Positions 14,299-33,972 of a stretch of DNA of 64,000 nucleotides are shown piece after piece. The translations under genes and the position numbers were made by a program. Under the pieces are notes generated by a model. That model saw nothing but the letters and a program-made list of their open reading frames with translations, was not told where the DNA came from and made no database searches. The stretch lies in the NCBI RefSeq assembly GCF_003402535.2, contig NZ_AP025170.1:3671109-3735108 (forward strand), written 5' to 3'. The stretch comes from Cupriavidus sp. P-10 (GTDB taxonomy: Bacteria; Pseudomonadota; Gammaproteobacteria; Burkholderiales; Burkholderiaceae). The first letter of the stretch is position 1. Each line of letters starts with the position of its first letter.

Positions 14299-14318
14299 AC
14301 CACCGAGCGGGGGCGCAT

Positions 14319-14957: not shown

Positions 14958-15065
14958 TAATGTTTGTCTAACGATACAAGCGCCCCGCCAATCTCATATC
15001 CGGTTTTCTCCGTGGTCCGGAGGGCGCTTGCCGGCGCCCGCCCGTCCCCACACCGCATTGCACCC

Positions 15066-15081
15066 CTGTAACGGACTGTAA
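15066..15081. promoter_or_regulatory. CTGTAA direct repeat upstream of the RND pump, CpxR-type box
   Basis: CTGTAA at 15066 and 15076 gives GTAAC-N5-GTAAT, the same 10-bp period as the triple repeat upstream of the glycine-zipper gene. It lies about 142 bp before the adaptor start. Confidence 0.45.
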
Positions 15082-15222
15082 TACGCGACGCTGGCTCCGG
15101 CGGGCGAAGCGCGGTACTAGTAGAGTCTTTGCGCGACACGCGCCGGCGACATTCGATCACAACAAGCCGGGGCGGATCACGGGGAGTGGCGCAAAAGACG
15201 CGGTGCAGAGGGTCCACAGAAC

Positions 15223-16482: not shown

Positions 16483-16485
16483 GCC

Positions 16486-19400
16486 ATGACGCTGTCCGAA
16501 CTCTGCATCCGCCGTCCGGTGATGACGGTGCTGCTGTGCCTGGCCGTGATCGTGACGGGCATCGTGCTGTATCCGACCATCCCGATCGCCGCGCTGCCCA
16601 GCTTCAACTCGCCGGTGATCCAGGTCACCGCGACGCTGCCGGGCGCGAGCCCGGAAACCATGGCGGCGTCGGTGGCGACGCAGCTGGAAAAGCAGTTCGC
16701 CACCATCCCCGGCGTGTCGGTGATCAGTTCGTCGAATACGCTCGGCAACTCCAGCATCACCATCGAATTCAACAGCGACCGCGATATCGACGACGCGGCC
16801 GTGGACGTGCAGGCGGCGCTGTTCCGCGCCCAGCGTTCGCTGCCGATCGAGATGACGACGCCGCCTTCGTACCGAAAGGTCAACCCGGCGGACGCGCCGG
16901 TGCTGCTGCTGGCGATCAATTCGCCGGCGATGAGCCTGGCGGACCTGAATGCCTTCGGTGACAACCTGATTTCGCCCACGCTGGCGACGCTGCCGGGCGT
17001 GGCGCAGGTGCAGATCTTCGGGCAGAAGCGCTTTGCGGTGCGCGTGCGCGCGCACCCGGATGCGCTGGCCGCGCGCGGCCTGACGCTGGACGAGCTGGCC
17101 ACCGCGCTGAACCGCGCCAACGCCAACACCCCGGTGGGTACGCTGGACAGCGCACGCCAGACGCTGACGATCCAGGCCAACCGGCAGATGACCAACGCCG
17201 ACGCCTTCCGCAACATCATCGTCGCCAGCCAGCCCAACGGCGCGCTGGTGCGGCTGTCCGACGTGGCCGAGGTCGAGGACAGCGTCGAGACCATCAAGAC
17301 CGGCAGCTGGCTCAACAATGAACGTTCGATCGTGCTGGCCGTGCTGCGCCAGCCCGATGCCAATACCGTGGCGGTGGTCGATGCGATCAAGGCCGCCCTG
17401 CCCCGCCTGATCGCGCAGATGCCGGGCTCGGTCAATGTGGCGGTGGTCAACGACCGCTCCAATTCGATCCGCGAGTCGATCCACGACGTGCAGTTCACGC
17501 TGGCGCTGACGGTGGCGCTGGTGGTGATGGTGATCTTCCTGTTCCTGCGCCGCGCCGCCGCCACGCTGATCCCCACCGTGTCGCTGCCGATCTCGCTGAT
17601 CGGCACGGTGGCGCTGATGAAGGCGTTCGGCTACAGCCTGGATAACGTCTCGCTGCTGGCCATCACGCTGGCGGTGGGGCTGGTGGTGGACGATGCCATC
17701 GTGATGCTCGAGAACATCGTGCGCCATATCGAGGAAGGCGTGCCGCCGCTGAAGGCCGCGCTGGTGGGATCGCGCGAGATGGGCTTCACCATCCTGTCCA
17801 TCTCGATCTCGCTGGTGGCGGTGTTCATCCCGATCTTCTTCATGCCGGGCGTGATCGGCCTGCTCTTCCATGAGTTCGCCGCGGTGGTGTCGCTGTCGAT
17901 CCTGGTGTCGGCGGTGGTGTCGCTGACGCTGATCCCGATGCTGTGCGCGCGCTTCCTGTCGGCCGAGAACGTGCCGGTGGATGAGTCGCACCATGCCTAT
18001 GGCGACCATGCGGTGGCGCAGCCTGCCGCGCCGCAGAAGCAGACCCTGGGCATGCGCTCCACGCAGTGGTTCGAGAACCTGTTCGAGTTCACGCTGCACC
18101 GCTATGCGCGCGGGCTGGACTGGTGCCTGGCGCACCGGCGCACCGTGCTGGCGGTTGCCGGCCTGACCTTCGTGCTGACCGCCGTGCTGTTCGTCACGAT
18201 CCCCAAGGGCTTCTTCCCCGAGGAAGACATCGGCCAGATCCGCGTCAACGCCGAAGGCCCGCAGGATATTTCCTTCGACGCCATGGCCGAGCGCCTGCGC
18301 GACGCGGCCGAGCGCATGCGCGCCAACCCCGCGGTCAAGAGCATCGTGGTGGCCATCGGCGGCGGCCCGTCGCCGGCGATCAACACCGGCCGCATGTTCG
18401 TCGAGCTCAAGCCGCGCGGCGAGCGTAATGCCATGCCCAAGGTGATCGAGTCCCTGCGCCGCGATGTGGCCGGCGTGCCCGGGCTGGCGGTGTATTTCGC
18501 GCCGGTGCAGAACCTGCAGCTCGGCGGGCGCCAGAGCAAGAGCCGCTACCAGTACACGCTGCAGAGCGTGAAGGCCGGCCAGCTGCAGGACTACTCCGAC
18601 AAGCTGATGGCAAAGATGCGCGCCGACAGCCTGTTCCGCGATGTCACCAGCGACTCGCAGCAGTCGGGCCTGGAGGCGCACCTGTCGATCGACCGCGACA
18701 AGGCCAATGCGCTCGGCGTGCAGATGCAGGACGTGCGCACCGCGCTGTATTCGGCATTCGGCGAGCGGCAGGTATCGACCATCTACACCCCGATCGACAA
18801 CTACTACGTGATCCTGCAGGCGGCCGACCTCGACCGCGTCGACGAGACCGCGTTCGCCAAGCTCTACGTGCGCAGCAAGACCGGCCAGATGGTGCCGCTG
18901 TCGGCGTTCGCCACCACCGAGCGCCGCGTCGGCCCGATCGCGGTCAACCACCAGGGGCAGCTGCCGTCGGTGACGGTGTCGTTCAACCTGGCACCGGGCG
19001 CGGCACTGGGCGACGCGTCGGCGCGCATCGACCGCTACAAGCAGGAGATCGCGATGCCGACGTCGATCTTCACCAGCTGGGGCGGCGACGCGGCGGTGTT
19101 CCAGTCATCGCAGGCCACGCAGATCGTGCTGCTGGTGGCCGCCATCGCGGTGATCTACACGCTGCTGGGCGTGCTGTACGAAAGCTATATCCACCCGCTG
19201 ACCATCCTGGCGGGCCTGCCCTCGGCGGCGGTCGGGGCCTTGCTGACGCTGTTTATCTTCAATGTCGAGCTGTCGCTGATCGCGGTGATCGGCGTGCTGA
19301 TGCTGATCGGCATCGTCAAGAAGAACGCGATCATGATGATCGACTTCGCGCTGGCGGCGCAGCGCGAGCAAGGCATGCTTCCGGCCAAGGCAATCCGGCA

Positions 19401-19683
19401 GGCATGCCTGCTGCGCTTCCGTCCGATCATGATGACCACCTTCGCCGCGGTGATGGGGGCGCTGCCGCTGGCGCTGGGCCTCGGCGCCGGCGCCGAGCTG
19501 CGCCAGCCGCTGGGCCTGGCGGTGGTCGGTGGCCTGCTGTTCTCGCAGGTGATCACGCTGTTCATCACGCCGGTGATCTACCTGGCGCTGGACAAGTTCT
19601 CGGGCACGGGGCCGCTGCAGATCGACTCGGAAGGCAACAAGCTGCCGGAGAAGGTCCCTGGGGAGACGGTGCGGCAGCACTGA
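16486..19683 (+). CDS. RND efflux pump permease (HAE1, MdtB/MdtC-like)
   Basis: 1065 residues, full length for the family: twelve membrane helices with two large periplasmic loops. Helix 4 has the proton-relay Asp pair in VGLVVDDAIVMLENI. It should extrude lipophilic or anionic compounds using the proton gradient. Unlike E. coli mdtBC there is a single pump gene, and like many MdtBC-type pumps it would borrow an outer-membrane channel encoded elsewhere (for example the OprM-type protein at 45866). Confidence 0.92.
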   Translation: MTLSELCIRRPVMTVLLCLAVIVTGIVLYPTIPIAALPSFNSPVIQVTATLPGASPETMAASVATQLEKQFATIPGVSVISSSNTLGNSSITIEFNSDRDIDDAAVDVQAALFRAQRSLPIEMTTPPSYRKVNPADAPVLLLAINSPAMSLADLNAFGDNLISPTLATLPGVAQVQIFGQKRFAVRVRAHPDALAARGLTLDELATALNRANANTPVGTLDSARQTLTIQANRQMTNADAFRNIIVASQPNGALVRLSDVAEVEDSVETIKTGSWLNNERSIVLAVLRQPDANTVAVVDAIKAALPRLIAQMPGSVNVAVVNDRSNSIRESIHDVQFTLALTVALVVMVIFLFLRRAAATLIPTVSLPISLIGTVALMKAFGYSLDNVSLLAITLAVGLVVDDAIVMLENIVRHIEEGVPPLKAALVGSREMGFTILSISISLVAVFIPIFFMPGVIGLLFHEFAAVVSLSILVSAVVSLTLIPMLCARFLSAENVPVDESHHAYGDHAVAQPAAPQKQTLGMRSTQWFENLFEFTLHRYARGLDWCLAHRRTVLAVAGLTFVLTAVLFVTIPKGFFPEEDIGQIRVNAEGPQDISFDAMAERLRDAAERMRANPAVKSIVVAIGGGPSPAINTGRMFVELKPRGERNAMPKVIESLRRDVAGVPGLAVYFAPVQNLQLGGRQSKSRYQYTLQSVKAGQLQDYSDKLMAKMRADSLFRDVTSDSQQSGLEAHLSIDRDKANALGVQMQDVRTALYSAFGERQVSTIYTPIDNYYVILQAADLDRVDETAFAKLYVRSKTGQMVPLSAFATTERRVGPIAVNHQGQLPSVTVSFNLAPGAALGDASARIDRYKQEIAMPTSIFTSWGGDAAVFQSSQATQIVLLVAAIAVIYTLLGVLYESYIHPLTILAGLPSAAVGALLTLFIFNVELSLIAVIGVLMLIGIVKKNAIMMIDFALAAQREQGMLPAKAIRQACLLRFRPIMMTTFAAVMGALPLALGLGAGAELRQPLGLAVVGGLLFSQVITLFITPVIYLALDKFSGTGPLQIDSEGNKLPEKVPGETVRQH

Positions 19684-19705
19684 GGGCGATGGCTGGCCAG
19701 ACCAG

Positions 19706-20083
19706 CTATTCGCTCTCTTCGCCCAGCATGTCGCAGGGCACGCCCAGTGCTTGCGCCAGCCTGCGAAGCGCATCGGGGCTGCCGGCGCGCGAACGGTTTT
19801 CGATCTGGCTGAGATATGGCTTGCTCAGGCCCGCGGCCCGGGCAAGCGCGTCCTGCGTCAGCCGGCGATAGTTGCGCCATGCCTTGACCGGATGGTCGCC
19901 GGCCAGTTCGGCATCGAGCACGGCGGCCGGCACGCGGAAGCCGTCGTCCTTGGCCCTGGCGGCGTCGAACAGGGCGACGTCGCCCGCGTCTTCAATCAGG
20001 TATTTGACGCGCTCCCACATCTCGATGGGGATCACCGCATATTCGCGGCGGCCGTCTCGTTCAATAAACTGGATTCCAGTCAT
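19706..20083 (-). CDS. Xre-family antitoxin
   Basis: 125 residues. The N-terminal part (IERDGRREYAVIPIEMWERVKYLIED) resembles antitoxin dimerisation segments. The C-terminal Cro/C1 helix-turn-helix spans about residues 67-120 (LTQDALARAAGLSKPYLSQIE). The start at 20083 has a GGAGGAG site and overlaps the toxin stop by 4 bp. Toxin-first order is typical of HigBA/RelE-Xre modules. It should neutralise the toxin and repress the operon through the GCTAAC sites upstream. Confidence 0.88.
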   Translation of the reverse strand: MTGIQFIERDGRREYAVIPIEMWERVKYLIEDAGDVALFDAARAKDDGFRVPAAVLDAELAGDHPVKAWRNYRRLTQDALARAAGLSKPYLSQIENRSRAGSPDALRRLAQALGVPCDMLGEESE

Positions 20084-20337
20084 TTGTAAGCTCCTCCACG
20101 TGGGCTGACGGCCAGTACGAGAATCACCAGCCGTCCGTCCTCGATTTCGTACAACACTCGCCAATCCCCTACCCGGAGCCGATAGCCGTTTCGTCCCGCA
20201 AGCTTTCTTGCGTTCGGGTTCGGTGCGTAAGGATCCACGGCAAGGCCATTGACCTTCGCGACGATCGTTGCGGCAAGGTTTCTGGGCATGGCCTTCAGGG
20301 TCTGTGCAGCTTGCCGGGTGAACTCAATGGCGTACAT
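20080..20337 (-). CDS. RelE/ParE-superfamily toxin
   Basis: 85 residues. The fold pattern is clear: MYAIEFTRQAAQTLKAMPRNLAATI, then NARKLAGRNGYRLRVGDWRVLYEIEDGRLVILVLAVSPRG. These are the RelE hallmarks R-x-G-D-W-R-V-x-Y and a C-terminal basic strand. Probably a ribosome-dependent mRNA interferase. First gene of the TA pair. Confidence 0.9.
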   Translation of the reverse strand: MYAIEFTRQAAQTLKAMPRNLAATIVAKVNGLAVDPYAPNPNARKLAGRNGYRLRVGDWRVLYEIEDGRLVILVLAVSPRGGAYK

Positions 20338-20355
20338 GCAGCATGTCAGTGCTGC

Positions 20356-20382
20356 GCTAACACGTTAGCAAACAAAGTTAGC
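20356..20382. promoter_or_regulatory. TA-operon operator
   Basis: GCTAAC-AC-GTTAGC inverted repeat (20356-20369) plus a third GTTAGC half-site (20377-20382), 19-45 bp upstream of the toxin start. This position suits autorepression by the antitoxin. Confidence 0.6.
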
Positions 20383-20472
20383 ACGACACGTAGAGTTGTT
20401 CAAGCAGTCGAACATTGCATACATGTGGCATGCACGCCACGCCCTTTGATGTAAGTCATTTACCTATCTGCT

Positions 20473-20491
20473 GTAAATGATAATAATTCTC
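20473..20491 (+). promoter_or_regulatory. Fur box upstream of the heme-type operon
   Basis: The 19 bases at 20473-20491 match the Fur consensus GATAATGATAATCATTATC at 15 of 19 positions; mismatches are at positions 2, 3, 13 and 17. A TGATAAT (20478-20484) inside it could be the -10 element, so iron-loaded Fur would block the promoter. The start codon is 120 bp downstream. Confidence 0.75.
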
Positions 20492-20610
20492 GTTAACTAA
20501 AAACGGCGTCACCCGCGGCCATGCGCCGGACGGGCAGCGCCTCTACGCGAGCCAGCCACCCTGTCACGGTTTTCCGCCAGCCAGCGTTCGATTTCTTCTG
20601 GGGAGAATCC

Positions 20611-22890
20611 ATGAAACGTCGCTGCCTGGCGCGCCTGCGCGCCTCCGTCCGGGTCACGCCTGTTGCCGCCGTCTGCGCGGCGCTGGGCTCGCCAGCCTTC
20701 GCCGCCGAGGGCGATAGCCAGACCACCGCGCTTGCCTCGCTCAATGAAGTGGTGGTCACCGCCACGCGCACCGAGGAGCGTGCCGATGCGGTCGCCTCCA
20801 CCATCACCACGCGCGAGGCGCGCCAGATCGAGCGCGCGCAGCCGGTCGACGAGACTGGCCTGTTCGCCGACGAGCCCGATATCGACGTGCCGCGCGACCG
20901 CCGCCGCTTTGGCGCGGGCAGCATCAATATCCGCGGCATCGAAGACAACCGCGTGCTGCAGATGGTCGACGGCGTGCGCCTGCCAGACTTCTTCAATGGC
21001 GGCGGCCCGTCGAACATCTCCAGCTCGACGCGCGATGCGCCGGAGTTTTCGTTCCTGAAGCGCGTGGAAGTGCTGCGCGGGCCGGCGTCGAGCCTGTATG
21101 GCTCGGATGCGATCGGCGGCGTGGTGGCCTATGCGACCAAGGACCCCGTCGACCTGACGCAGGGCCGCAAGGTCGGCGGCGAGGTCGGGCTGAACTGGAA
21201 CGGCATCGACAATGGCTTCGGGCAGACCGCGGGCGTGGCCGGCGGCAGCGACACCATCCAGGGCCTCTTCATGGTCGCGAACCGCAATGCGCACGAAATG
21301 AAGAACATGGGCACCGACGGCTCCAACTCGGTCAACCGCACCAGGCCCAATCCGCAGGACGTGCGCACGCAGGCATGGCTGGGCAAGATCCTGCTCAACG
21401 CCACGCCCGAGCACAAGTTCAAGTTCACCTACGAGCATCGCGACGGCAATACCGACACCGACCTGCTGCGGTTATCCACAGCCCTGCCGCGTGTGACCGC
21501 CGCCAGCGGCAATGAAGACCTGAGCCGCGACCGCGTCAGCCTGGACTACGAGTGGAAGCCCGCCAGCGGCCTGCTGGATCGCCTGGCGGCGCAGGTCTAC
21601 TACCAGGAATCGGAGACCTCCACGCTGACCAACCAGGTGCGCAGCAACACCAGCACCGGCTGCTCGGCCACCACGCGCGGCACCAGCCTGTGCAACGTCG
21701 CGCTGGGCTTTGCCTTCAGGCAGGAGCAGACCGGCTTCAACGTGCAGGGCGACAAGTCCTTCGTCACCGGCAGCGTCGGGCACCGGCTGATCGGCGGCGT
21801 CGATTTCATGCGCACGCGCACGTCCGAGTCGCGCGATGCCACGGTGGTCAACCTGACCACCGGCACCACCACCAAGTCCCTCGCCGGCGAGAACTTCCCG
21901 GTGCACGACTTCCCCACCGGCGAGACGCGCCAGACCGGCGTGTTCGCGCAGGACGAGATGCGCTTCTTCGATGGCCGCTTCACGCTGACGCCGGGGCTGC
22001 GCTTCGACCACTACTCGCTGTCGCCGGATGGCGACGACCTGGTCTACAGCAGTGCCGGCGGCCGCCCGGCGGTCAGCAAGAGCGATTCGCACGTGTCGCC
22101 CAAGCTGTCGGCACTGTGGCAGGCGACCGACCACGTCAACCTGTGGGCGCAATATGTGTTTGGCTACCGCGCGCCCAACTACCAGGAGGTCAACGGCAGC
22201 TTCCGCAATCCGGTGCAGGGCTACGGCGCCGCGCCTAACGCGGACCTGAACCCGGAGAAGAGCCGCTCGTTCGAGGTCGGCGCGCGCTATACCAGCGACA
22301 ACGTGCAGACCAGCGTGGCGCTGTTCGATAACCGCTATCGCGACTTTATCGAACAGGTGCAGCTGACCTGCCCGTCCGACCCCGCCTGCCTGCCCGGCCT
22401 GCGCGCGACCTACCAGTACCGCAACCAGACCAGCGTGCGCATCTACGGCGCCGAGTGGCGCGGCGTGTGGCGCTTCCTGCCGCAATGGCGCATCGACGGC
22501 GCGGTCGCGTATGCGCACGGCACCAATGAGCAGACCGACCAGCCGCTTAACAGCGTGTCGCCGCTGCGCGCGAGCGCGGGGCTGACCTGGGAGCGCGTGC
22601 AGGGCCAGGGTGCCGCAATCCGCTGGCGCGGCGCGCGTCCGGTCACGCGTACCGATGACACGTCGTTCACCTACTTCAAGCCCGCCGGCTACGGCGTGGT
22701 CGACCTGCAGGCGTGGTGGCGCTTCAACCGCTTCGTCAGCCTGGCGCTGTCGGTGAACAACCTGTTCGACAAGAAGTACTGGCTGTGGGGCGACGTGCGC
22801 CAGACCGGCGTATCGGCCACCGAGCCCGGCGTGGACTTCTACACGCAGCCGGGCCGTACCTTCGCCGCCAGCCTGAAGCTGTCGTTCTGA
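20611..22890 (+). CDS. TonB-dependent receptor, hemoglobin/heme family
   Basis: 759 residues; the start at 20611 has GGGGAG and a signal peptide ending in SPAFAAEGD. A TonB box LNEVVVTATRTEE follows directly, then the plug (IRGIEDNRVLQMVDGVRLP; EVLRGPASSLYGSDAIGGVV) and a 22-strand barrel ending in SLKLSF. The heme-receptor motifs YRAP (about residue 518) and a PNADLNPEKS segment like NPNL are present; the histidine usually found between them is not evident, so the ligand could be another porphyrin or a heme protein. First gene of a five-gene operon behind a Fur box. A perfect in-frame DnaA box (21472-21480) uses the rare codon TTA. Confidence 0.88.
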   Translation: MKRRCLARLRASVRVTPVAAVCAALGSPAFAAEGDSQTTALASLNEVVVTATRTEERADAVASTITTREARQIERAQPVDETGLFADEPDIDVPRDRRRFGAGSINIRGIEDNRVLQMVDGVRLPDFFNGGGPSNISSSTRDAPEFSFLKRVEVLRGPASSLYGSDAIGGVVAYATKDPVDLTQGRKVGGEVGLNWNGIDNGFGQTAGVAGGSDTIQGLFMVANRNAHEMKNMGTDGSNSVNRTRPNPQDVRTQAWLGKILLNATPEHKFKFTYEHRDGNTDTDLLRLSTALPRVTAASGNEDLSRDRVSLDYEWKPASGLLDRLAAQVYYQESETSTLTNQVRSNTSTGCSATTRGTSLCNVALGFAFRQEQTGFNVQGDKSFVTGSVGHRLIGGVDFMRTRTSESRDATVVNLTTGTTTKSLAGENFPVHDFPTGETRQTGVFAQDEMRFFDGRFTLTPGLRFDHYSLSPDGDDLVYSSAGGRPAVSKSDSHVSPKLSALWQATDHVNLWAQYVFGYRAPNYQEVNGSFRNPVQGYGAAPNADLNPEKSRSFEVGARYTSDNVQTSVALFDNRYRDFIEQVQLTCPSDPACLPGLRATYQYRNQTSVRIYGAEWRGVWRFLPQWRIDGAVAYAHGTNEQTDQPLNSVSPLRASAGLTWERVQGQGAAIRWRGARPVTRTDDTSFTYFKPAGYGVVDLQAWWRFNRFVSLALSVNNLFDKKYWLWGDVRQTGVSATEPGVDFYTQPGRTFAASLKLSF

Positions 22891-22916
22891 GCCACATCGG
22901 CTCAAGGAGGTATCGC

Positions 22917-25900
22917 ATGTCCCCACAAAACATAACCGGTCGCTGCCTCTGGGCGCTGCTGTGCCTGCTGGTGTGGATGGGCGCGGCGCAGGCTGCCACG
23001 CCGCGCATCGCCATCCTGACCAGTTCGCCGGTGCCGGCCGGCAAGTTCGGCCCGCTGCGCGAGATGGCGCAGGCGCAGGGCATGACGCTCGATGCGCAGT
23101 ACCTGGAGCGCATGGCGGCGCAGGACATCGCGCCGTTCATCAACAACGCAGACCTGCTGATCGTCGATGCGCCGCGCGACCACATCGTCACCGCGACGCT
23201 GCAACGCCTCGGACCTTTGTGGACCGAAGCGCGCGTACCGCGCGTACTGATCGCCACCGACCGCTACGAAGCACACGGCGTCGACGACAAGCTCGCGGTG
23301 CAACTGCATGCGTACTACGTCAACGGCGGCCGCGGCAACTTCGGCGCGATGATGCGCACGCTCGCGGCACAGCAGTTCCGCCTGCGCGGTGACGACGGCA
23401 TTCCGGCACCCGTGGTGTTTCCCAAGGCCGCCTATTACCACCCGAAGCTGGCAGGCGTGATCACCACGTCGCCGCAGGACGCGCTGGCCGCATCGGGCAG
23501 CAGCGGTCCGGTGATCGGCATTGCCATCCACCAGGCCTATGTGTCCGGTCTCGACAGCGCCTTTATCGACGACCTGATTGGTCGCCTCGAAGCACGCCAT
23601 GCGCGCGTGCTCACGTTTTACGGCCCGGTGATGGATGCCGACGGCATCACGCGCATGGCGATGCCCGGCGGCAAGCGCCTGGTCGATGTGCTGATCAACG
23701 GCCAGATCATGCTGAACCCGCACGGCCGCAAGGCCGAATTCGAGAAGCTCGACGTACCAGTGACGCAGGTCATGCCCTATCGCAGGGGAGATGCGCAGGC
23801 GTGGCAGGACGACCCGCACGGCATCAGCCTGACCGACACGCCGTTCTACCTGGTGCAGCCCGAACTGGCCGGCGTGATCGATCCCATCCTGGCCGCTGCC
23901 ACGGCCAGGGGCGACGGCGCCATCGTCAGCCTGCCCGCGCAGCTCGATACGGTGGCCGACAAGGCGTTGGCACTGGCACGGCTGCGCCACCTGCCCAACG
24001 CCGACAAGCGCGTGGCGATCCTCTACTACAACTACCCGGCCGGCGAGAAGAACCTGTCGGCGTCGTTCCTGAACCTGCCCAGGAGCCTGGCCAGCACGCT
24101 CGCCGCGCTGCGCGCCGCGGGCTATACCACCGAGGCCGCAGACGAAGCGCGCTTGCAGCGCGACCTCGGCGCATTGCTCGCACCGTTCTATCGCAGCGGC
24201 AAGCTGGAGCCTTTGCTCGATGCCGGCCTCGCGGTGTGGATGCCGATGGCGCAATACCGCCGCTGGTACGACGCGCAGCCGGCACCGTTCCGTGCGGCGG
24301 TGGCGCAGCGCTGGGGCAACCCCGAGCAATCGGCGATGGCGGCCACGCACAACGGTGAGGCCGGCTTTGTGATCCCGCGCCTCCAGCTCGGCAACGTGGT
24401 GCTGACGCCGGTGCCGCCGCGCGGCGAGCGCAATGAATCGGACGAGAAGGCGCTGTACCACTCCACCACCACGCCGCTGAACCACTTCTACATGGCGGCC
24501 TACCTGTGGGCGCGTACCGGAGATGGGGGTCGAGAGGCGCTGGTGCACTACGGCACGCATGGCACGCAGGAATGGACGCCGGGCAAGGAGCGCGGCCTGT
24601 CTGTCACCGACCAGCCCTACCTCGTGCTGGGCAGCGTGCCGGTGATCTATCCGTACATCGTCGACGACGTTGGTGAAGCGATCCAGGCCAAGCGTCGCGG
24701 CCGCGCGGCAATCGTCAGCCACCAGACGCCGCCGTTCCGGCCGGCGGGCCTGCATACCGACATGGTATCGCTGCACGATCAGTTGCATGCGTACCTGCAG
24801 CAGGACGAAGGCGCGGTGAAGGACACCATCCGCCGGCAGATCCTGTCGCGCAGCGCGTCGATGCACCTGTACGAGGACATGGGCTGGACCGCCGCGCGTG
24901 CGCGCTCGGACTTCACTGGCTACCTGGATGCGCTGCATATCCACCTGCATGAACTTGGCGGGGCGCTGCAGCCTTATGGCCTGCACACGTTCGGGCAATC
25001 GCAGGACGACGGGCTGCGGCTTTATACGACCATGGCGATGCTCGGCAAGGACTGGCTCAGGCGCGTCTTCCCCGAGGAGCCCGAGGAGCTGTTCGCGGTC
25101 GACTACGCGCAACTTGCGCAGACGCCGCCTTATGCGATGGTGCGGCGCTACGTGGCCGAAGGCGCATCGCTCGATGAACTGGGCGACGCGCGCCAGCGCG
25201 AAGACATGCAGCGTGCGCGGCAGCTCTATGCCAGCCTCGATGCATCGCCGGAAAATGCCGGCTTGCTGACCGCGCTGGCCGGCCGCCACCTGCAATCGGG
25301 AACGGGCGGCGATCCGGTGCGCAATCCCGACACGCTGCCGACCGGCCGCAACCTGTACGGCTTCGATCCCTCCAGGGTGCCCAGCCGCGAAGCGTGGAAA
25401 GCGGGCCAGGCCGCCGCCGAGGCGATGATCGCCGACTGGCGCAAGCGCCATGGCCGCTATCCCGACAAGCTGGCGTTCTCGCTGTGGAGCGTGGAGACCA
25501 TGCGCCACCAGGGCATGCTCGAAGCGCAGGCGATGGCGGTTCTGGGCGTGCGGCCGAAATGGGATGACGGTGGCCGCGTGGTTGGCGTCGAACCGATTCC
25601 CGCAGCTGAATTGGGACGCCCGCGCGTGGACGTGGTGCTGTCCGCGACCGGACTCTATCGCGACCACTTCCCTAACCTGATGAAGTGGCTGGCCGAGGCG
25701 GTGAAGCTCGCCGCTGCGCAGCCGGAGGCGGACAACGTCGTCGCCGCGAACACCCGCGCGGTGCGCGAACGGCTGGCGAAGCTGAACGTTCCCGCCGACA
25801 GCCTCGATGCGCTGGCGGTGACGCGCATCTTCGCCAGCGAATCGGGCAACTACGGCACCGGCCTGAACGATGCGGCGATGGCCACCGACACGTTTGGCAG

Positions 25901-26933
25901 CGGCCGCGAGGCCGACGCCAGGCTGGCCAGGCTGTACCTCGCGCGCATGCAGTACGCCTACGGTCCCGATGAGCAGCACTGGGGCGAGGCGCTGCCGCAG
26001 GTCAACCTCTATGCCGAGAACCTGAAAGGCGTCGACGGTGCGCTGCTGGCGCGCAGCTCCAACCTGTACGGCATGCTGACCACCGACGACCCGTTCCAGT
26101 ACCTTGGTGGCATCGGGCTCGCCGTGCGGCACCTGACCGGCAAGGCGCCAGAGTTGCTGATCTCGAACCTGCGCGATGCCAGCAACGCGCGCACCGAGAC
26201 CGCCGCGAGCTTCCTCGCCAGCGAGCTGCGCACGCGCTACTTCCATCCGGGCTGGATCGAGGGCATGAAGGCCGAGGGCTACAGCGGCGCGCTGAACGTT
26301 CTCGACACCGTCAACAACTTCTGGGGCTGGACCGCGGTCTCGCCCGAGATCGTGCGTGACGACCAGTGGACCGAGTTCGCCGAGGTCTATGTCAACGACA
26401 AGCACAAGCTCGGCCTGAACGAGTGGTTCGAGAAGAACGCGCCGCAGGCCCAGGCCCAGGTGATCGAACGCATGCTCGAAGCCGCGCGCAAGGGCTACTG
26501 GAAGGCCGACGACAGGCTGCTGAAGACGCTGGCGCAGCGCTACGAAGCCCTGGCGCAGCGCCACGACATCGTCAGCAACAACCGCGCCTTCAACCAGTAC
26601 CTGAAGCAGCAGGTGCCGGCGCAGACGCAGGCGCCGGGCTATGGCATGCGGCCGCCCGCTGCGGCGCCACGTCCTGCGCCCGCGGCAACGCCTCCAAAGC
26701 CTGCCCCCGCGGCACCAACGCCAGAGCCGCCGCCCGGGCCCGCCCCGAACCAGCCGCAGCCGGTGCACGGCATGCAGCTGGTCGAACGCAAGCCGCCCGC
26801 GGCCGAGATCGTGCCGGTGCTGTCGTGGCTGGCAGGCGGCATCGCGCTGGCGGCCGCTATCGCAGGCGGCGCGCTCAGCGCGCGGCGGCGCCAGGCCGAT
26901 GCCGGCGGCAGCTGGCTGCCCGGACGGCGCTGA
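22917..26933 (+). CDS. CobN/HmuS-like chelatase, exported and membrane-anchored
   Basis: 1338 residues of the CobN/magnesium-chelatase subunit H superfamily. The start at 22917 has AAGGAGG 6 bp upstream and begins a Sec signal peptide (CLWALLCLLVWMGAAQA). Core motifs are intact: HYGTHGTQEWTPGKERGLS (His544, His548), ESGNYGTGLNDAAMATDTF and LDTVNNFWGW. The C-terminus is a Pro/Ala linker, one membrane helix (about 1298-1322) and an Arg-rich cytoplasmic tail. A periplasmic anchored enzyme cannot use cytoplasmic CobS/CobT, and neither is encoded here. The closest known arrangement is HmuS of Bacteroides hmu loci, a CobN-like protein reported to remove iron from heme. I infer metal removal from imported porphyrin; the direction of the reaction is not shown by the sequence. 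Confidence 0.85.
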   Translation: MSPQNITGRCLWALLCLLVWMGAAQAATPRIAILTSSPVPAGKFGPLREMAQAQGMTLDAQYLERMAAQDIAPFINNADLLIVDAPRDHIVTATLQRLGPLWTEARVPRVLIATDRYEAHGVDDKLAVQLHAYYVNGGRGNFGAMMRTLAAQQFRLRGDDGIPAPVVFPKAAYYHPKLAGVITTSPQDALAASGSSGPVIGIAIHQAYVSGLDSAFIDDLIGRLEARHARVLTFYGPVMDADGITRMAMPGGKRLVDVLINGQIMLNPHGRKAEFEKLDVPVTQVMPYRRGDAQAWQDDPHGISLTDTPFYLVQPELAGVIDPILAAATARGDGAIVSLPAQLDTVADKALALARLRHLPNADKRVAILYYNYPAGEKNLSASFLNLPRSLASTLAALRAAGYTTEAADEARLQRDLGALLAPFYRSGKLEPLLDAGLAVWMPMAQYRRWYDAQPAPFRAAVAQRWGNPEQSAMAATHNGEAGFVIPRLQLGNVVLTPVPPRGERNESDEKALYHSTTTPLNHFYMAAYLWARTGDGGREALVHYGTHGTQEWTPGKERGLSVTDQPYLVLGSVPVIYPYIVDDVGEAIQAKRRGRAAIVSHQTPPFRPAGLHTDMVSLHDQLHAYLQQDEGAVKDTIRRQILSRSASMHLYEDMGWTAARARSDFTGYLDALHIHLHELGGALQPYGLHTFGQSQDDGLRLYTTMAMLGKDWLRRVFPEEPEELFAVDYAQLAQTPPYAMVRRYVAEGASLDELGDARQREDMQRARQLYASLDASPENAGLLTALAGRHLQSGTGGDPVRNPDTLPTGRNLYGFDPSRVPSREAWKAGQAAAEAMIADWRKRHGRYPDKLAFSLWSVETMRHQGMLEAQAMAVLGVRPKWDDGGRVVGVEPIPAAELGRPRVDVVLSATGLYRDHFPNLMKWLAEAVKLAAAQPEADNVVAANTRAVRERLAKLNVPADSLDALAVTRIFASESGNYGTGLNDAAMATDTFGSGREADARLARLYLARMQYAYGPDEQHWGEALPQVNLYAENLKGVDGALLARSSNLYGMLTTDDPFQYLGGIGLAVRHLTGKAPELLISNLRDASNARTETAASFLASELRTRYFHPGWIEGMKAEGYSGALNVLDTVNNFWGWTAVSPEIVRDDQWTEFAEVYVNDKHKLGLNEWFEKNAPQAQAQVIERMLEAARKGYWKADDRLLKTLAQRYEALAQRHDIVSNNRAFNQYLKQQVPAQTQAPGYGMRPPAAAPRPAPAATPPKPAPAAPTPEPPPGPAPNQPQPVHGMQLVERKPPAAEIVPVLSWLAGGIALAAAIAGGALSARRRQADAGGSWLPGRR

Positions 26934-26971
26934 GGCACCGAAGATATCCATCGCATCCAAAGAGACGAGAC

Positions 26972-27481
26972 ATGACACCCACCCTGCTTGAAACCCTGAT
27001 GTACGACGTCGGCCAACTGTTCCTGATCCCGACGCTCGCGCTGATCGCGCTGCTGTTCCTGTACGCTTTCTGGGCGCTGGGCGAATTCGCGATGCAGGCC
27101 TGGCTGCGCGCGCGCCATCCCATTGCCAGCGGCCGCGGCTACGTGCTGGTGGCGTGGGCGCGGCGCAACAAGGTGGCCGATGCCGATGCGCTCGACGTCG
27201 CCGCGCACCGCTTGCTGGAGCGCCCGCGCATCGCCACGCGCGTGGCGCCGATGCTGGGGCTGGTGGCCACCATGATCCCGATGGGCCCGGCGCTGAAGGG
27301 CCTGTCCGGTGGCAACCTGGCCAATGTGGGCGAGAATCTCACCATCGCCTTCTCCGCGGTGATCCTGGCGCTGATCGCGGCCAGCATTACTTTCTGGGTG
27401 GTCAACGTGCGCCGCCGCTGGCTGGCCGAAGAACTGGTGTGGCTGGGCAAGTCCCACCCGCAATGGGAGGTCGACGCATGA
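26972..27481 (+). CDS. MotA/TolQ/ExbB-type proton channel protein
   Basis: 169 residues with three membrane helices (about 14-38, 90-110 and 125-147). The conserved ExbB/TolQ block APMLGLVATMIPMGPALKGL is followed by NLTIAFSAVILALIAASITF. Such proteins form the proton-conducting pentamer of Ton/Tol/Mot motors. It lies between the anchored chelatase and a DUF2149 protein whose start overlaps its stop (ATGA), so the two are translationally coupled. The likely role is to energise the receptor or the chelatase; this is inference. Confidence 0.87.
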   Translation: MTPTLLETLMYDVGQLFLIPTLALIALLFLYAFWALGEFAMQAWLRARHPIASGRGYVLVAWARRNKVADADALDVAAHRLLERPRIATRVAPMLGLVATMIPMGPALKGLSGGNLANVGENLTIAFSAVILALIAASITFWVVNVRRRWLAEELVWLGKSHPQWEVDA

Positions 27482-27837
27482 AATTCCTGGAAGATAGCGA
27501 AGCCGACGATCCGATCCTGTCGGTGGTGAACCTGATCGACGTGTTCCTGGTGGTGATCGCCGCGCTGCTGGTGGCGATCGCGCAGAACCCGGCGAATCCG
27601 TTCACGCATGACGACGTGACGGTTATCACCAACCCCGGCAAGCCGAACATGGAGATCGTGTCGCGCCAGGGAGAGAAAGTGGTGCGCTACCAGGCCAGCG
27701 GCCAGGTCGGCAGCGGCGACGGCATCAAGGCCGGCGTGGCGTACCGGATGAAGGACGGGTCGATGGTGTACGTGCCGGAGCAGCCCGCGCAGGCGGGCGG
27801 CGAACAGGCATCGGCGCCGGGGACCACAACCAGATAA
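27478..27837 (+). CDS. DUF2149 protein, ExbD-like partner of the channel
   Basis: 119 residues: a short cytoplasmic N-terminus (MKFLEDSEADDPILSVVNL), one membrane helix (IDVFLVVIAALLVAIA) with an acidic residue at its start, and a periplasmic domain. The topology copies ExbD/TolR, where the helix Asp is the proton site. DUF2149 genes are known neighbours of CobN-like and MotA/TolQ/ExbB genes in bacteria and archaea. Overlaps the channel gene by 4 bp. Confidence 0.82.
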   Translation: MKFLEDSEADDPILSVVNLIDVFLVVIAALLVAIAQNPANPFTHDDVTVITNPGKPNMEIVSRQGEKVVRYQASGQVGSGDGIKAGVAYRMKDGSMVYVPEQPAQAGGEQASAPGTTTR

Positions 27838-27849
27838 AGGAACCATGGC

Positions 27850-28689
27850 GTGATCTCATTCCGCTTGTGCGCGGCCGGCATGCTGGCTGCAAGCTTTGCC
27901 GTGCTGAGCGCCGGCTGTGCGACCCCGGGCCCTTCGCCAGCAGCAGTCAGCGCCACCTTTGCCGGCAAGCCCTACGTGCTGCTGGGCGAGGTCCACGACA
28001 ACGCCGACGGCCAGCAGCAGCGGCTCGGCGCGCTCACGCGCGCGGTCGAGCAAGGCTGGCGCCCGGCCATCGCCATGGAGCAGTTCGACCGGGAACGGCA
28101 GGCCGATATCGACCGCGCCCGCCGGGAGCGGCCCAGGGATGCCGATTACCTGATCGCGCAGGCCGGCGGCGGCGCCTGGCAGTGGCCGCTGTACCGGCCG
28201 GTGGTGGCGCTGGCGCTGCAGTACGACCTGCCGCTGGTGGCGGCCAACCTGTCGCGCGCGGATGCGGGCAAGATCGTGCGCGGCGGGCTGGACGGGCTGT
28301 TCCCGGCGGACGAGCGGCAGAAGCTTGGCCTGACCGGAGAGTTGCCGCCTGACCTGGTGGCGGCGCAGACCGCGGTGCTCGACCGCGGCCACTGCGGCAA
28401 TTTCCCCAAGGCGATGCTGCCCGGCATGCTGGCCGCACAGGCGGCGCGCGACGCGGTGATGGCGCAGGCGTTGCGGCCCTACGCGCAGCGTGGGGCGGTG
28501 CTGATTGCCGGCAACGGGCATGTGCGGCGCGATGTCGGGGTGCCGCGCTGGCTTGCTGGCGAGGCCGGCAAGGTTGTCAGCGTGGGCTACGTGGAGAGCG
28601 CGCCGGCGGACGGCGAGTTCGACATGGCAGTGGTGGTGCCGGCGGTGGCGCGCAAGGATCCTTGCCTGCAGGCGAAGCCGGCGGGGTGA
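27850..28689 (+). CDS. ChaN-family heme-binding-type lipoprotein
   Basis: 279 residues from a GTG start with AAAGGA 8 bp upstream (an ATG at 27845 is out of frame). Lipoprotein signal with lipobox LSAGC (Cys23). The ChaN/DUF399 core is present: YVLLGEVHDNADGQQQR, AIAMEQFDRERQ and the C-terminal GNGHVRRDVGVPRWL. ChaN of Campylobacter jejuni binds cofacial heme, so this protein may hold heme at the membrane for the chelatase. Last gene of the operon, 12 bp after the DUF2149 gene. Confidence 0.87.
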   Translation: MISFRLCAAGMLAASFAVLSAGCATPGPSPAAVSATFAGKPYVLLGEVHDNADGQQQRLGALTRAVEQGWRPAIAMEQFDRERQADIDRARRERPRDADYLIAQAGGGAWQWPLYRPVVALALQYDLPLVAANLSRADAGKIVRGGLDGLFPADERQKLGLTGELPPDLVAAQTAVLDRGHCGNFPKAMLPGMLAAQAARDAVMAQALRPYAQRGAVLIAGNGHVRRDVGVPRWLAGEAGKVVSVGYVESAPADGEFDMAVVVPAVARKDPCLQAKPAG

Positions 28690-29053
28690 GCGCTGTTTGG
28701 CTGTTGCGGGGCCAGAGCCACCACGAAGTCCCGCCCCCCCACATGCCAATCCCACGCCATCCACGTAAACCCCGACCCCGTCCCGCCCCTTTTGACAGCC
28801 TTTTGACAGTTTCCCCCGCCTAGAATCCGCCCCATGGTCGCTAATCCCGGCCTGATGTTCACCAATAATCCAAGAACAGTCCCGGCCACGCCCCGCCGCG
28901 CCCGGACAGGAGACAACCCCGGCAGCGCCCCGCGCGCCGCCGGCAGGCCGTGTCCCCGTCCCCGGCAACGCTCAGGCTGCCGCCGGAACCCCGGGTCGGA
29001 TCGCGGTCGCCAGTGACTGGCAAGCGATCACCGGTACAACCAAGGAGACCGCT
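28690..29053. other. 364-bp intergenic region before tctC
   Basis: Contains an 11-bp tandem duplication CCTTTTGACAG at 28788-28798 and 28799-28809, followed by TAGAAT (28821-28826). The TTGACA copies are spaced 23 and 12 bp from that hexamer, so they are not a normal -35/-10 pair and may be a regulator site. No gene seen. Confidence 0.5.
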
Positions 29054-30022
29054 ATGCGCCGTTCGATTTCCCGTTTCGCCCATGCCGCGCTGGCATCGGC
29101 CGCCGTTGCCGCCACCGTCGTTGCCGCGCCCGCCTATGCGCTGGACAGCGTCAAGGTCATGATCGGCGCCAACCCCGGCGGCGGCTACGACCAGACCGGC
29201 CGCTCGCTGGGCGCCGCGATGATCGCCGCGGGCCAGGCCAAGACCGCTTCGTACGACAACAAGGGCGGCGCAGGCGGCACCATCGCACTGACGCAGTTCG
29301 TCAACACCGACAAGGGCAACCCCAACGCGCTGATGGTGGTGGGTGCGGTGATGGTCGGCGCGATCGAGACCAACAAGCCGCCGGTCACGCTGAAGAACGC
29401 CACGCCGATCGCGCGCCTGTTTGCCGACACCATGGTCATCACCGTGCCGGCCAGCTCGCCGATCAAGTCGATCAAGGACCTGACCACGCAACTCAAGGCC
29501 AACCCGGGCAGCGTCAGCTGGGGCGGCGGCTCCAAGGGTTCGATCGACCATATCCTGGCCGGCCTGGTCGCCAAGGAAAGCGGCGTCGATCCCAAGAAGA
29601 TCAACTACGTGCCGTTCCAGGGCGGCGGCGAAGCCTCGGCCTCGATCATGGGCGGCCACGTGACGGTGGGCATCGCCGGCGTGTCTGAGTTCCTGCCCTT
29701 CATCAAGAGCGGCAAGATGCGCGCGCTGGCGGTGACCTCCAAGGACCGCACCGCCGACATCCCGACGCTGAAGGAGCAAGGCGTCAACGTCGAGATCTAC
29801 AACTGGCGCGGCGTGTATGGCGCGCCCGGCACCACGCCGGAGCAGCGCAAGGCCATGATCGACGCGGTGGTCAAGGCCACCGAGAGCAAGGCCTGGAAGG
29901 ACACGCTGCAGAAGAACGACTGGACGCCGTTCCTGCTGACCGGCGACGAGTTCGGCAAGTTTGTCGACAGCGAATCGACCCGCCTGGGCGGCACGCTGCG
30001 CGAGCTGGGCGTCGCCAAGTAA
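29054..30022 (+). CDS. tctC: Tripartite tricarboxylate transporter substrate-binding protein
   Basis: 322 residues. Signal peptide to PAYA, then a Bug/TctC fold: VKVMIGANPGGGYDQTGRSLG, KTASYDNKGGAGGTIALTQFV, VPFQGGGEASASIMGGHVTVGIAGVSEF. It captures a di- or tricarboxylate in the periplasm for TctAB. First gene of tctCBA, separated from tctB by 262 bp containing a long hairpin that probably sets the excess of binding protein over membrane subunits. Confidence 0.92.
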   Translation: MRRSISRFAHAALASAAVAATVVAAPAYALDSVKVMIGANPGGGYDQTGRSLGAAMIAAGQAKTASYDNKGGAGGTIALTQFVNTDKGNPNALMVVGAVMVGAIETNKPPVTLKNATPIARLFADTMVITVPASSPIKSIKDLTTQLKANPGSVSWGGGSKGSIDHILAGLVAKESGVDPKKINYVPFQGGGEASASIMGGHVTVGIAGVSEFLPFIKSGKMRALAVTSKDRTADIPTLKEQGVNVEIYNWRGVYGAPGTTPEQRKAMIDAVVKATESKAWKDTLQKNDWTPFLLTGDEFGKFVDSESTRLGGTLRELGVAK

Positions 30023-30138
30023 AGCCCGCTGCCGCGCGAACCCGGCGCGGCCCGAAACACCCCGCATTTCCGCATCAGAACCGCTTTACCTGTCGTGCCT
30101 GCCAACACCGCCGGAGATCCCGGCGGCAGGAAAACGGC

Positions 30139-30198
30139 ATGGGGCCCGGTGTCCACCTGCGATACCGAAGACAACAACCATATGTCGCCGGGCCCCAT
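30139..30198. repeat. Long inverted repeat between tctC and tctB
   Basis: ATGGGGCCCGG (30139-30149) pairs exactly with CCGGGCCCCAT (30188-30198) across a 38-nt loop. No T run follows, so it is more likely an mRNA-stabilising or processing hairpin, or a leaky terminator, than a full stop. Confidence 0.6.
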
Positions 30199-30284
30199 TG
30201 CCGCGCGGGCCTTGACGTCAGACGGCTAAGCCAGCGTCGCGGACGCCAGCCCCCCTTGCTGGCGACAAAGGCCAAGGAGTCTCC

Positions 30285-30758
30285 ATGAAACCCTCGCACG
30301 TTGCCATCGGCGTTGCCGTCCTGGCGCTTTCGCTGTTTTTCTTTGTGGGCCTGTCGGGCATTACCGGCGAAGAGGGCTATGCCGGCCTGTCGCCGCGCTT
30401 CGTGCCCACGCTGGTGGCCGTCGGGCTGGCCGTGTGCGGCGCGCTGCTGACGTGGCAGGGCGTGCGCGGCGGCTTCCGCAACATGCCGGAGGAAGATGCC
30501 GAGCTGCCCAACGCGCCGCACAACTTCAAAGGCTTCCTGTGGGTGGCGGCCGGCCTGGTGCTGAACATGGCACTGATCGGCACGCTCGGCTTCGTGTTTT
30601 CTTCCACGCTGCTGATGGTGTGCGTGGCGCGCGGCTACGGCAGCCGCCGCATCGTGCGCGACGTGATCGTGGGCCTCTGCATCACGGTGCCGATGTGGGC
30701 GCTGTTTGAATTCCTGCTCGGCATCAACCTGCCGCTGCTCCCCATCGCCGGCTTCTGA
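30285..30758 (+). CDS. tctB: Tripartite tricarboxylate transporter TctB
   Basis: 157 residues with four membrane helices, the small membrane subunit of the TTT family. The N-terminal block [22 protein letters not shown] and the C-terminal [19 protein letters not shown] are typical. Followed 28 bp later by tctA with its own AAGGAG site. Confidence 0.92.
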
Positions 30759-30786
30759 GCCCGCCCGTCCAGCAAGGAGTCTTCGA

Positions 30787-32301
<1,515 letters not shown>

Positions 32302-32331
32302 TGCGCGTTAGCATGCGGTAGTGTCTCCGGG

Positions 32332-32360
32332 GCCCGGCGCCATGGCGTGCGGGCCCTTTG
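32332..32360 (+). terminator. Terminator of tctCBA
   Basis: GGGCCCG/CGGGCCC stem around a GCGCCATGGCGT loop that can itself pair, followed by TTT. Confidence 0.6.
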
Positions 32361-32417
32361 CATTTCCACCCTTGGAAAACAACAAGCGCCGGCGCCCCCG
32401 CGCCAGGCCGCTGACCG

Positions 32418-33476
32418 ATGAGTCTTGCCGCCAACCGCTGGCTGTCCGCGGTGCCCACGCTGGCACTCGGGCTGGCCGCCGCCCTGCTCTGTACTGTCCT
32501 GCATACGCCGTTGCCCTGGATGATCGGACCGCTGCTGGCCGTCGCCACGGCGCGCATGTGGGGCGCCGACCTGCGCGCGCCGTCGCAGGCGCGCAATGCC
32601 GGACAGTGGGTGATCGGCGCGTCGCTCGGCCTGTATTTCACGCCGGACGTGGTGGCGCGGCTGGTGGAGTTCCTCCCCTATATCGTTGCCGGCTCGCTGT
32701 TCGCACTGGCGATGGGCGCGGGCGGCGCGCTGATGCTGCGCCGGACCACCGGCGTCGCGTTCAAGACCGCCTACTTTTCCACAGCCATCGGCGGCGCTTC
32801 CGAGATGGCCAACCTTGCCGAGCGCAATGGCGCACGCATCGACCAGGTCGCGGCGGCGCATTCGCTGCGCGTGCTGATGGTGGTGGTGACGGTGCCGGCG
32901 ATCTTCCAGTACGGCGGCATCCATGGGCTCGACACGTATATCCCCGGCCCGCGCGTGGTCAGCGCGCCGGGCCTGCTCGCGCTGGTGGCGATCACGCTGA
33001 GCGTGGCGCTGCTGGTCAGGCGCCTGAACATGCCCAACCCGTTCGTGATCGGCACGCTGCTGGCGGCAGCGGTGCTGACGGCATCGGGCATCGAGCTGTC
33101 GGCGATCCCGACCTGGATGAGCCGTGCCGGCCAGCTGCTGATCGGCGTGTCGCTGGGCGTGCGCTTCTCGCGTGAGTTCCTGCACACCGCGCCGCGCTTC
33201 CTGTCGGGTGTGGCGCTGTACACCGTGCTGGCGCTGGTGGTGTCGGCGCTGTTCGGCTGGGCGCTGTCCGCGCTGTCGGGCGCCCACCCGGCCACGATGA
33301 TCCTGGCCACCACGCCCGGCGGCATTGCCGAGATGTGCATCACCGCCAAGGTGCTGGAGCTGGGCGTGCCACTGGTGACGGCCTTCCATGTGATCCGGAT
33401 GGCCTTCGTGGTGCTTGCCACCGGCCCCCTGTATCATTGCCTGAAGCATCGCGTCGCGCCGGGGGAGACAGCGTAA
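32418..33476 (+). CDS. AbrB family membrane protein
   Basis: 352 residues, about ten membrane helices in two similar halves. The duplicated block AAYFSTAIGGASEMANLAERNGA-like (about 118-140) and ILATTPGGIAEMCITAKVLELG (about 294-315) is the hallmark of the AbrB/PF05145 family, sometimes mislabelled ammonia monooxygenase. Substrate unknown. The Shine-Dalgarno is weak. Confidence 0.88.
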   Translation: MSLAANRWLSAVPTLALGLAAALLCTVLHTPLPWMIGPLLAVATARMWGADLRAPSQARNAGQWVIGASLGLYFTPDVVARLVEFLPYIVAGSLFALAMGAGGALMLRRTTGVAFKTAYFSTAIGGASEMANLAERNGARIDQVAAAHSLRVLMVVVTVPAIFQYGGIHGLDTYIPGPRVVSAPGLLALVAITLSVALLVRRLNMPNPFVIGTLLAAAVLTASGIELSAIPTWMSRAGQLLIGVSLGVRFSREFLHTAPRFLSGVALYTVLALVVSALFGWALSALSGAHPATMILATTPGGIAEMCITAKVLELGVPLVTAFHVIRMAFVVLATGPLYHCLKHRVAPGETA

Positions 33477-33525
33477 GGTCGGCCACGGGTCCGCCACGGG
33501 CCGGCCACGGGCGCGGCTAAGGAAC

Positions 33526-33972
33526 ATGGATACAAGAACGAGGACCGCCATGTCTGAAGCATCACCGCAACTTGCCCTTGCCGACATCGACGCCACGCTG
33601 GAGCGCGTGCTGGCGCCGTGGGTGCGCCAGCTCGGCCTGCGTGCCGAAGCCGTCGATGCAAAAGGCGTAACGCTGCGCCTGCCTTTCAACGAATCATTTC
33701 GCCACGCGGGTGGCGTGGTGTGTGGCCAGGTGCTGATGTCGGCGGCCGACACCGCCATGATCGTCGCCGTCGCGAGTGCGCTCGGCGGCTTCCGCCCGAT
33801 GACCACGGTCTCGCTCACCACCAACTTCATGCGTCCCGTGATCGACGGCGACGTGCTGGTGCGCGCCAACGTGCTGCGCCTGGGCAAGACCGTGGTGTTC
33901 GGCGAGATCGAGCTGACCGGCACCGACGGCAAGCTGGCGGTGCAGGCCACCACCACCTACGCGCTGCTCTGA
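33526..33972 (+). CDS. PaaI-type hotdog thioesterase
   Basis: 148 residues; a 4HBT fold with the active-site region FRHAGGVVCGQVLMSAADTAMIVAV, the acidic residue being in SAADTA. It hydrolyses acyl-CoA thioesters of unknown chain. AAGGA lies 4-5 bp before the start used; Met9 at 33550 also has a GAGGA site and is a possible alternative. The stop overlaps the lipase start (TGATG), so the two products are coupled. Confidence 0.87.
   Translation: MDTRTRTAMSEASPQLALADIDATLERVLAPWVRQLGLRAEAVDAKGVTLRLPFNESFRHAGGVVCGQVLMSAADTAMIVAVASALGGFRPMTTVSLTTNFMRPVIDGDVLVRANVLRLGKTVVFGEIELTGTDGKLAVQATTTYALL

Follow-up and report, generated by a model that had tools for sequence, protein, structure and literature searches.

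Among the class I chelatases, CobN and ChlH/BchH are described as cytoplasmic enzymes driven by ATPases (PMC12583661, PMC13227078). HmuS, encoded in the hmuYRSTUV locus that is placed mainly in Bacteroidota, is reported to make protoporphyrin IX (PPIX) from heme (PMC12583661), and the introduction to that 2025 paper terms the removal of iron from heme with an intact ring controversial. A third CobN type, BtuS, was proposed by Rodionov et al. 2003 (as cited in PMC6460266), and its two studied members, B. fragilis BtuS1 and BtuS2, are Bacteroidota proteins, unlike the chelatase considered here. In P. aeruginosa, PA1922–PA1925 combine a TonB receptor with CobN-like and ExbB/D-like genes and a hypothetical gene, and are reported to be co-induced (PMC4542158, PMC10393844, PMC11761036). 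Here we describe a five-gene operon encoding a CobN-like class I chelatase in Cupriavidus sp. P-10, at positions 20473–28689 of a 64-kb stretch of the 9.08 Mb genome (contig 1, 3671109–3735108), hereafter the window, meaning the whole stretch of DNA that was analysed. The locus puts a differently built HmuS-related system in a betaproteobacterium. Taken together with the related loci, it suggests that metal stripping by a module of this kind extends beyond hmu, which would be one instance of it.

A membrane-anchored chelatase module

The operon lies on the + strand and comprises five open frames separated by short gaps or overlaps throughout. These encode a TonB-dependent receptor of the hemoglobin family (20611–22890, 759 amino acids, frame checked; TIGR01786, 422.5 bits, cut-off 323.75), a membrane-anchored, CobN-like class I chelatase (22917–26933, 1338 amino acids; PF02514, E 2e-294, 980 bits), an ExbB/TolQ/MotA-like protein (26972–27481; PF01618, 24.8 bits, cut-off 22.9), a DUF2149 protein (27478–27837; PF09919, 94.8 bits) whose gene overlaps the preceding one by 4 bases, and a ChaN-like lipoprotein (27850–28689; PF04187, 149.1 bits) with a GTG start and an LSAGC lipobox identified by eye. 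A preliminary description of the locus had named these five genes in this order, led by a hemoglobin-family receptor and standing behind a 15/19 Fur box, and the reading frames, the Pfam and TIGR matches and a Fur-box scan all confirm it. The same description had named a phylogeny against HmuS and CobN as the check on the chelatase. In an IQ-TREE analysis of 25 chelatases a branch with 99/99 support separates the window protein and HmuS from cobalamin CobN. The HmuS side also holds a Runella/Omnitrophota/Planctomycetes group and a Kuenenia/Thermodesulforhabdus/Nitrospirae group, BchH, canonical CobN, Deinococcus and Haloarcula lie opposite, and a FastTree phylogeny of 109 chelatases, from which the 25 were taken, gives the same split. 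HmuS itself forms a long branch, sister to the rest of its side. Among the 120 matches listed, the window chelatase is 77–92% identical to named Cupriavidus proteins, and the operon also occurs in Cupriavidus necator SHC 2-3 (L005).

Relatives of the window chelatase were found in 80 named genome loci, and 59 of the 84 loci with a chelatase (named genomes, the window and plasmid loci, numbered L below) had enough flank for neighbour counts. ExbB-like and DUF2149 genes both stand beside the chelatase in 57 of these 59 loci, one alone in none and neither in two, and 53 have a receptor where one would be expected. All 20 members of the ExbB-like cluster A3 matched PF01618, and 27 of the 399 genomes surveyed in the order, including that of the window, have a DUF2149 match above the family cut-off. 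The acid at window Asp21, in an apparent membrane helix of the DUF2149 protein, is Asp in 54/55 proteins and Glu in Runella, and the threonine at window Thr100 of the ExbB-like protein is kept in 49/49; a conserved membrane acid and a threonine are likewise found in ion-driven stators. By its ExbB-like and DUF2149 neighbours, signal peptide, anchor, juxtamembrane motif and position relative to CobN/BchH in the tree, the window chelatase belongs to a wider module consisting of a membrane-anchored chelatase, ExbB and DUF2149.

Topology, active site and a shared juxtamembrane motif

The window chelatase begins with a signal peptide ending in AQA (22917–22994, +; by eye and hydropathy) and ends with a proline-rich linker (26613–26768, +), the juxtamembrane sequence GMQLVERK (26769–26792, +), which is of a type common to module chelatases, and an approximate C-terminal transmembrane anchor (26802–26870, +; hydropathy 2.1). 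On these signals the protein appears to face the periplasm, with its C-terminal helix in the inner membrane. CobN (7c6o) and ChlH/BchH share the class I chelatase family and a GxHG-type motif with it, but the relatives compared have neither a C-terminal anchor nor the juxtamembrane motif.

Comparison with HmuS, using the residue numbering and roles given in PMC12583661, revealed both shared and divergent positions. The superfamily motif with the conserved active-site histidine, His-538 in HmuS, is kept (HYGTHG, within HYGTHGTQEW; 24546–24575, +). The HmuS heme ligand Met-79 aligns with Pro, the ligand His-254 has no counterpart and falls in a gapped stretch with Gly, and the HmuS motif LSLDHxxEFMGG (His-1209, Glu-1212) is not found; its place is taken by LTTDDPFQYLGG (26076–26111, +), in which the second active-site histidine, His-1209, is Asp. 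The methionine-rich insertion of HmuS domain IV is also absent, with ~116 residues between the two matched stretches against ~280 in HmuS. Because Met-79, His-254 and His-1209 are not kept and the insertion is missing, we consider the window chelatase a cousin of HmuS and not a member, and HmuS proper was rejected on the grounds of these published heme-site and catalytic residues. The kinship in gene set and layout with hmuRSTUV that had been claimed for the operon stands; the suggestion of an HmuS function was premature. With hmuYRSTUV as described in PMC12583661 the operon has in common a receptor, an ExbB-like gene, a DUF2149 gene and a class I chelatase that is anchored and periplasmic, lies on the same side of the tree and carries the juxtamembrane motif. 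It differs in that the positions of HmuY and HmuT are not filled and in the addition of ChaN and a Fur box. The chelatase of an Azospirillum brasilense plasmid (L094) carries DHPFEYLGG, that is, a His and a Glu of HmuS type.

Directly before the C-terminal helix, and after a linker whose composition is clade-specific, the module chelatases carry the motif G-Phi-x-[LM]-x-[E/K], as in GMQLVERK of the window, GYKMQEE of Runella, GYEMEEE of Kuenenia and GVVMKKEE of HmuS. It was found in 70/78 proteobacterial, 8/9 Runella-clade and 6/6 anammox-clade chelatases, in 6/6 HmuS rows that are close Bacteroides relatives and not six independent cases, and in 0/5 anchorless CobN/BchH relatives, in which the stretch scanned was an arbitrary C-terminal one. 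Shuffling each of 99 linkers gave 2.6 expected matches. The pattern was defined after the tails had been inspected, and the counts are therefore descriptive, with the shuffles excluding only linker composition as an explanation. Of the eight proteobacterial misses, four (L034, L040, L042, L067) lack both linker and anchor in the C-terminal stretch used and four have a looser form; by eye, similar tails occur in L093, L094, L096 and L097 and, less clearly, in L095. As ExbB and DUF2149 so regularly accompany the chelatase, the motif suggests a docking site for these two proteins. As a sequence feature shared across the HmuS, Runella, anammox and proteobacterial clades it is new here, and a search of the literature on DUF2149 and on HmuS (with ExbB or Cupriavidus), mostly short of full texts, found no description of the operon or the motif.

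An iron-type control site

Two overlapping Fur-box matches of 15/19 each, at 20473–20491 (+) and 20479–20497 (−), precede the operon. They are the highest-scoring Fur-box matches on either strand of the window and the sole ones to reach 15/19; with the limit set at 3 mismatches, which necessarily excludes 15/19 sites, there was no match. The matches cover the −10 element of a promoter-like sequence, TTTACC-17-AATAAT (20459–20487, +), which is the only sigma-70-like match in 20200–29200. As shuffled sequences contain 0.8 such matches, a count of one is not significant and it is the position of this match at the Fur box, rather than its number, that matters. Directly 5′ of the receptor start at 20611 lies GGGGAGAA.

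Fur boxes of at least 13/19 precede 28/57 receptor-first and 2/15 chelatase-first operons, compared to 27/501 other gene starts in the same loci; loci in which the contig ended within the upstream region were left out. Sorted by receptor, they precede 26/44 hemoglobin-type operons (15/33 without the Cupriavidus-type ones) and 4/17 CirA-like operons, compared to 27/504 control starts. Zur-like boxes of at least 10/12 were seen in none of the 44 hemoglobin-type or 17 CirA-like operons and at 3/504 control starts, and Zur control of the window operon was rejected; at a threshold of at least 9/12 the counts are 1/44, 2/17 and 12/504, respectively. No Rfam riboswitch family reached its gathering score in window positions 14000–34000, and a crude string search for B12 boxes gave scattered matches in five loci. 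By its sequence the control site is of iron type, and the operon would, within the tentative explanation set out below, be an iron-starvation operon.

Receptor, ChaN and likely cargo

In addition to TIGR01786, the receptor (PF00593/PF07715) exceeds the curated cut-off of TIGR01785, and its best solved relative is PhuR (8the_A, E 4e-99). Receptors of the module, sorted by motif, fall into two main classes, hemoglobin-family, to which that of the window belongs, and CirA-like. Four hemoglobin-class receptors, the window's included, pass the TIGR01786 cut-off, and two CirA-like receptors score best with CirA, below its cut-off. ChaN, which occupies three operon positions across the relatives, is present in 22/40 hemoglobin-type operons, 0/15 CirA-like operons and 2/14 loci with no classified receptor, the latter count leaving out five canonical CobN loci (Fisher p 1e-4 for ChaN against receptor class, uncorrected for kinship; fewest ChaN state changes on the tree, 7). 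The window ChaN weakly matches 2g5g (E 0.001), a protein of the same family (PF04187) which we take to be Campylobacter ChaN. The distribution of ChaN by receptor class favours heme or another iron porphyrin as the cargo of the window's class, and the window module probably acts on such a compound. Several relatives, among them L026, L053, L059, L061, L077 and L085, encode another TonB receptor, unlike the first, after the chelatase.

Relatives in other metal settings

On the Runella slithyformis plasmid pRUNSL01 (L083, 3122–11156) the module lies inside a hypBF-hypCDE [NiFe]-hydrogenase maturation cluster, accompanied by a permease resembling NicO/DsbD_2 below the Pfam cut-offs, and this is probably a nickel version of the module. 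The chelatase-ExbB-DUF2149 genes of the Azospirillum brasilense plasmid (L094, 5006–16964) are found near an ATP-binding cassette (ABC) importer, a receptor and nikR, and those of Trichlorobacter lovleyi pGLOV01 (L093, 8820–20229) belong to a cobalamin island, where a predicted transporter of the DUF2162 family accompanies them. Since the DUF2162 and NicO-like permeases of the last and first of these loci stand in comparable places, HmuT may be a metal permease; the proteins in the HmuT position of L095 (8012–8689) and L097 (6937–7635) match no Pfam family at E 0.05. In several loci from Burkholderiales the module is followed by genes for NnrS and an ABC importer (L015, with NnrS identified by Pfam; L020, L027 and L054, by cluster). 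PA1922–PA1925 differ from the window operon, to which they were compared by description and not by sequence, in their response to zinc starvation: they are reported to be strongly induced in a znuA mutant and to have a Zur site (PMC4542158), with Zur control of PA1922 seemingly limited to P. aeruginosa (PMC10393844).

Proposed mechanism and alternatives

Building on the genes present, their Fur box and the topology signals, shared motif and clade of the chelatase, we tentatively posit, with somewhat less than even confidence, that the operon encodes a TonB-loaded, stator-coupled machine that strips metal in the periplasm, probably from heme or another iron porphyrin, under an iron-type control site; its substrate, reaction direction, energy coupling and porphyrin fate would be as follows. 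At low iron, Fur repression of the operon would be relieved and the receptor would import a chelated metal, in all likelihood heme or some other iron porphyrin, to the periplasm. Import would be driven by the ordinary TonB-ExbB-ExbD complex of the cell, three further ExbD/TolR genes being present elsewhere in the genome. Anchored in the inner membrane through its C-terminal helix and otherwise periplasmic, the chelatase would take up the chelate and release iron, and Fe2+ could then enter via FeoB, a protein encoded in the genome, or via another importer. The ExbB-like and DUF2149 proteins would form a small ion-driven stator which docks on the anchor and juxtamembrane motif of the chelatase and powers or gates stripping, a role that falls to cytoplasmic ATPases in CobN and ChlH, and ChaN may bind heme or the leftover porphyrin. 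A stator docking at a short shared motif is thus a candidate answer to what drives such enzymes in the absence of CobST or ChlID.

The preliminary description had noted no heme oxygenase or heme ABC importer in the region and had suggested that iron may be taken from heme in the envelope. The former holds across the genome for HemO (PF01126), HemS (PF05171) and DUF2470 (PF10615), none of which had a match in a search that took in neither further families of heme-degrading proteins nor importers of the heme ABC type. The latter is supported as to the periplasmic topology predicted from sequence, while the nickel and cobalamin settings of relatives, the Zur report and the missing presumed PhuR ligands make heme a probable rather than an established cargo. 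Mutual exclusion of the module and HemS was not seen: among the 30 genomes with a DUF2149 match, HemS occurs in 5 of the 22 strongest (the 8 weakest left out) and in 9 of all 30, compared to 71/399 in the order. As HemS is as common with the module as in the order, there is no visible sign that the module takes over from heme use in the cytoplasm.

This lack of a negative association with HemS is one of several observations that weigh against the mechanism we propose, as do the substitutions at Met-79, His-254 and the LSLDHxxEFMGG motif of HmuS. Thr and Asn of the window receptor align with the heme ligands of PhuR, which we take to be His and Tyr, and an independent-pairs test of ChaN against receptor class had no power, with 3 pairs and none differing. 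Fur boxes share ancestry within clades, so that relatives are non-independent draws, and are rare before chelatase-first operons. Neither end of the chelatase is uniform across its 80 relatives, truncated contigs included: a C-terminal hydropathy peak of at least 1.6 is seen in 60/80 and of at least 1.2 in 72/80, so an anchor is not evident in every relative, and an N-terminal peak of at least 1.6 is seen in 56/80. The PF01618 match of the window's ExbB-like protein is weak, and the protein also has a weak MotA match (E 0.08). Identity of DUF2149 with ExbD was not established: Pfam ExbD matched none of 22 DUF2149 members, hhalign gave probabilities of 6% and 2%, and no credible PDB match was found. 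NCBIfam NF004644 would label the window chelatase CobN (1368.8 bits, cut-off 1248). Finally, a B. fragilis btuS1 btuS2 double mutant is reported to have still released PPIX (PMC6460266).

The automatic label raises the question of an ordinary cobalamin CobN, for which one could also cite a match to CobT, located on another contig next to a gene that is CobS-like by eye. We regard this as extremely improbable and rejected it, given the signal peptide and anchor, the position outside the CobN clade, the Fur-box operon with a heme-type receptor, and a genome with no match to CbiC/CobH (PF02570), in which, besides CobT, other cob families were not searched. The genome holds one PF02514 gene. Alternatively, the same machine could serve another cargo, such as a non-heme iron chelate or zinc, nickel or cobalt, in which case the link of Fur to iron would be no more than indirect. 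Relatives in a [NiFe]-hydrogenase cluster, beside nikR and in a cobalamin island point in this direction, as do the zinc-responsive P. aeruginosa genes, for all that their Zur control appears confined to that species, and the window receptor lacking the presumed PhuR ligands. We nevertheless think it unlikely for this operon, which includes a hemoglobin-family receptor and ChaN and which, like its hemoglobin-receptor relatives, has a box of Fur and not Zur type.

Two further alternatives retain heme and reassign the proteins. The chelatase and ExbB/DUF2149 might move intact heme across the inner membrane with no periplasmic stripping of iron, in keeping with the proposal in PMC13227078 that HmuTUV may carry heme across this membrane and that HmuS might pass heme on. 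This appears improbable considering that HmuS is reported to make PPIX (PMC12583661) and that the cytoplasmic families searched for release of heme iron, HemS, HemO and DUF2470, had no match. A view drawn for HmuU/HmuV in PMC12583661 would have ExbB/DUF2149 energise the TonB receptor and not the chelatase, and is consistent with the ExbB family membership and with a receptor in the operon and in its expected place in most loci. We judge it distinctly unlikely since ExbB and DUF2149 still accompany the chelatase in L062, L080 and L096, whose 18–22 kb of sequence yielded no receptor-like open reading frame (ORF), and in L064, where the sole receptor-like ORF is on the opposite strand. In addition, a complete, separate ExbB-ExbD-TonB set adjoins the module in L093, and none of the five genes of the window operon encodes TonB.

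Returning to the periplasmic stripping machine, a broader version, which we hold to be somewhat unlikely, is that class I chelatases include a general, ion-gradient-driven periplasmic machine for de-metallation, a membrane-anchored chelatase coupled via its juxtamembrane motif to an ExbB-DUF2149 stator, which would strip Fe, Ni, Co or Zn from TonB-imported chelates with operon context setting the metal. HmuS would be one branch of this machine and the Cupriavidus operon, with its iron-type control site and different active site, another.

Genomic surroundings

The CobT match lies on contig C2 (2235000–2253000; L092), beside a gene resembling cobS and an IclR-type regulator, both identified by eye. 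In the window, the operon is flanked by an RND efflux pair upstream and a TctC-type binding protein downstream. A small RelE-like ORF and a helix-turn-helix ORF (19706–20337, −), also upstream of the operon, resemble a HigBA-like toxin-antitoxin pair when judged by eye from the sequence.

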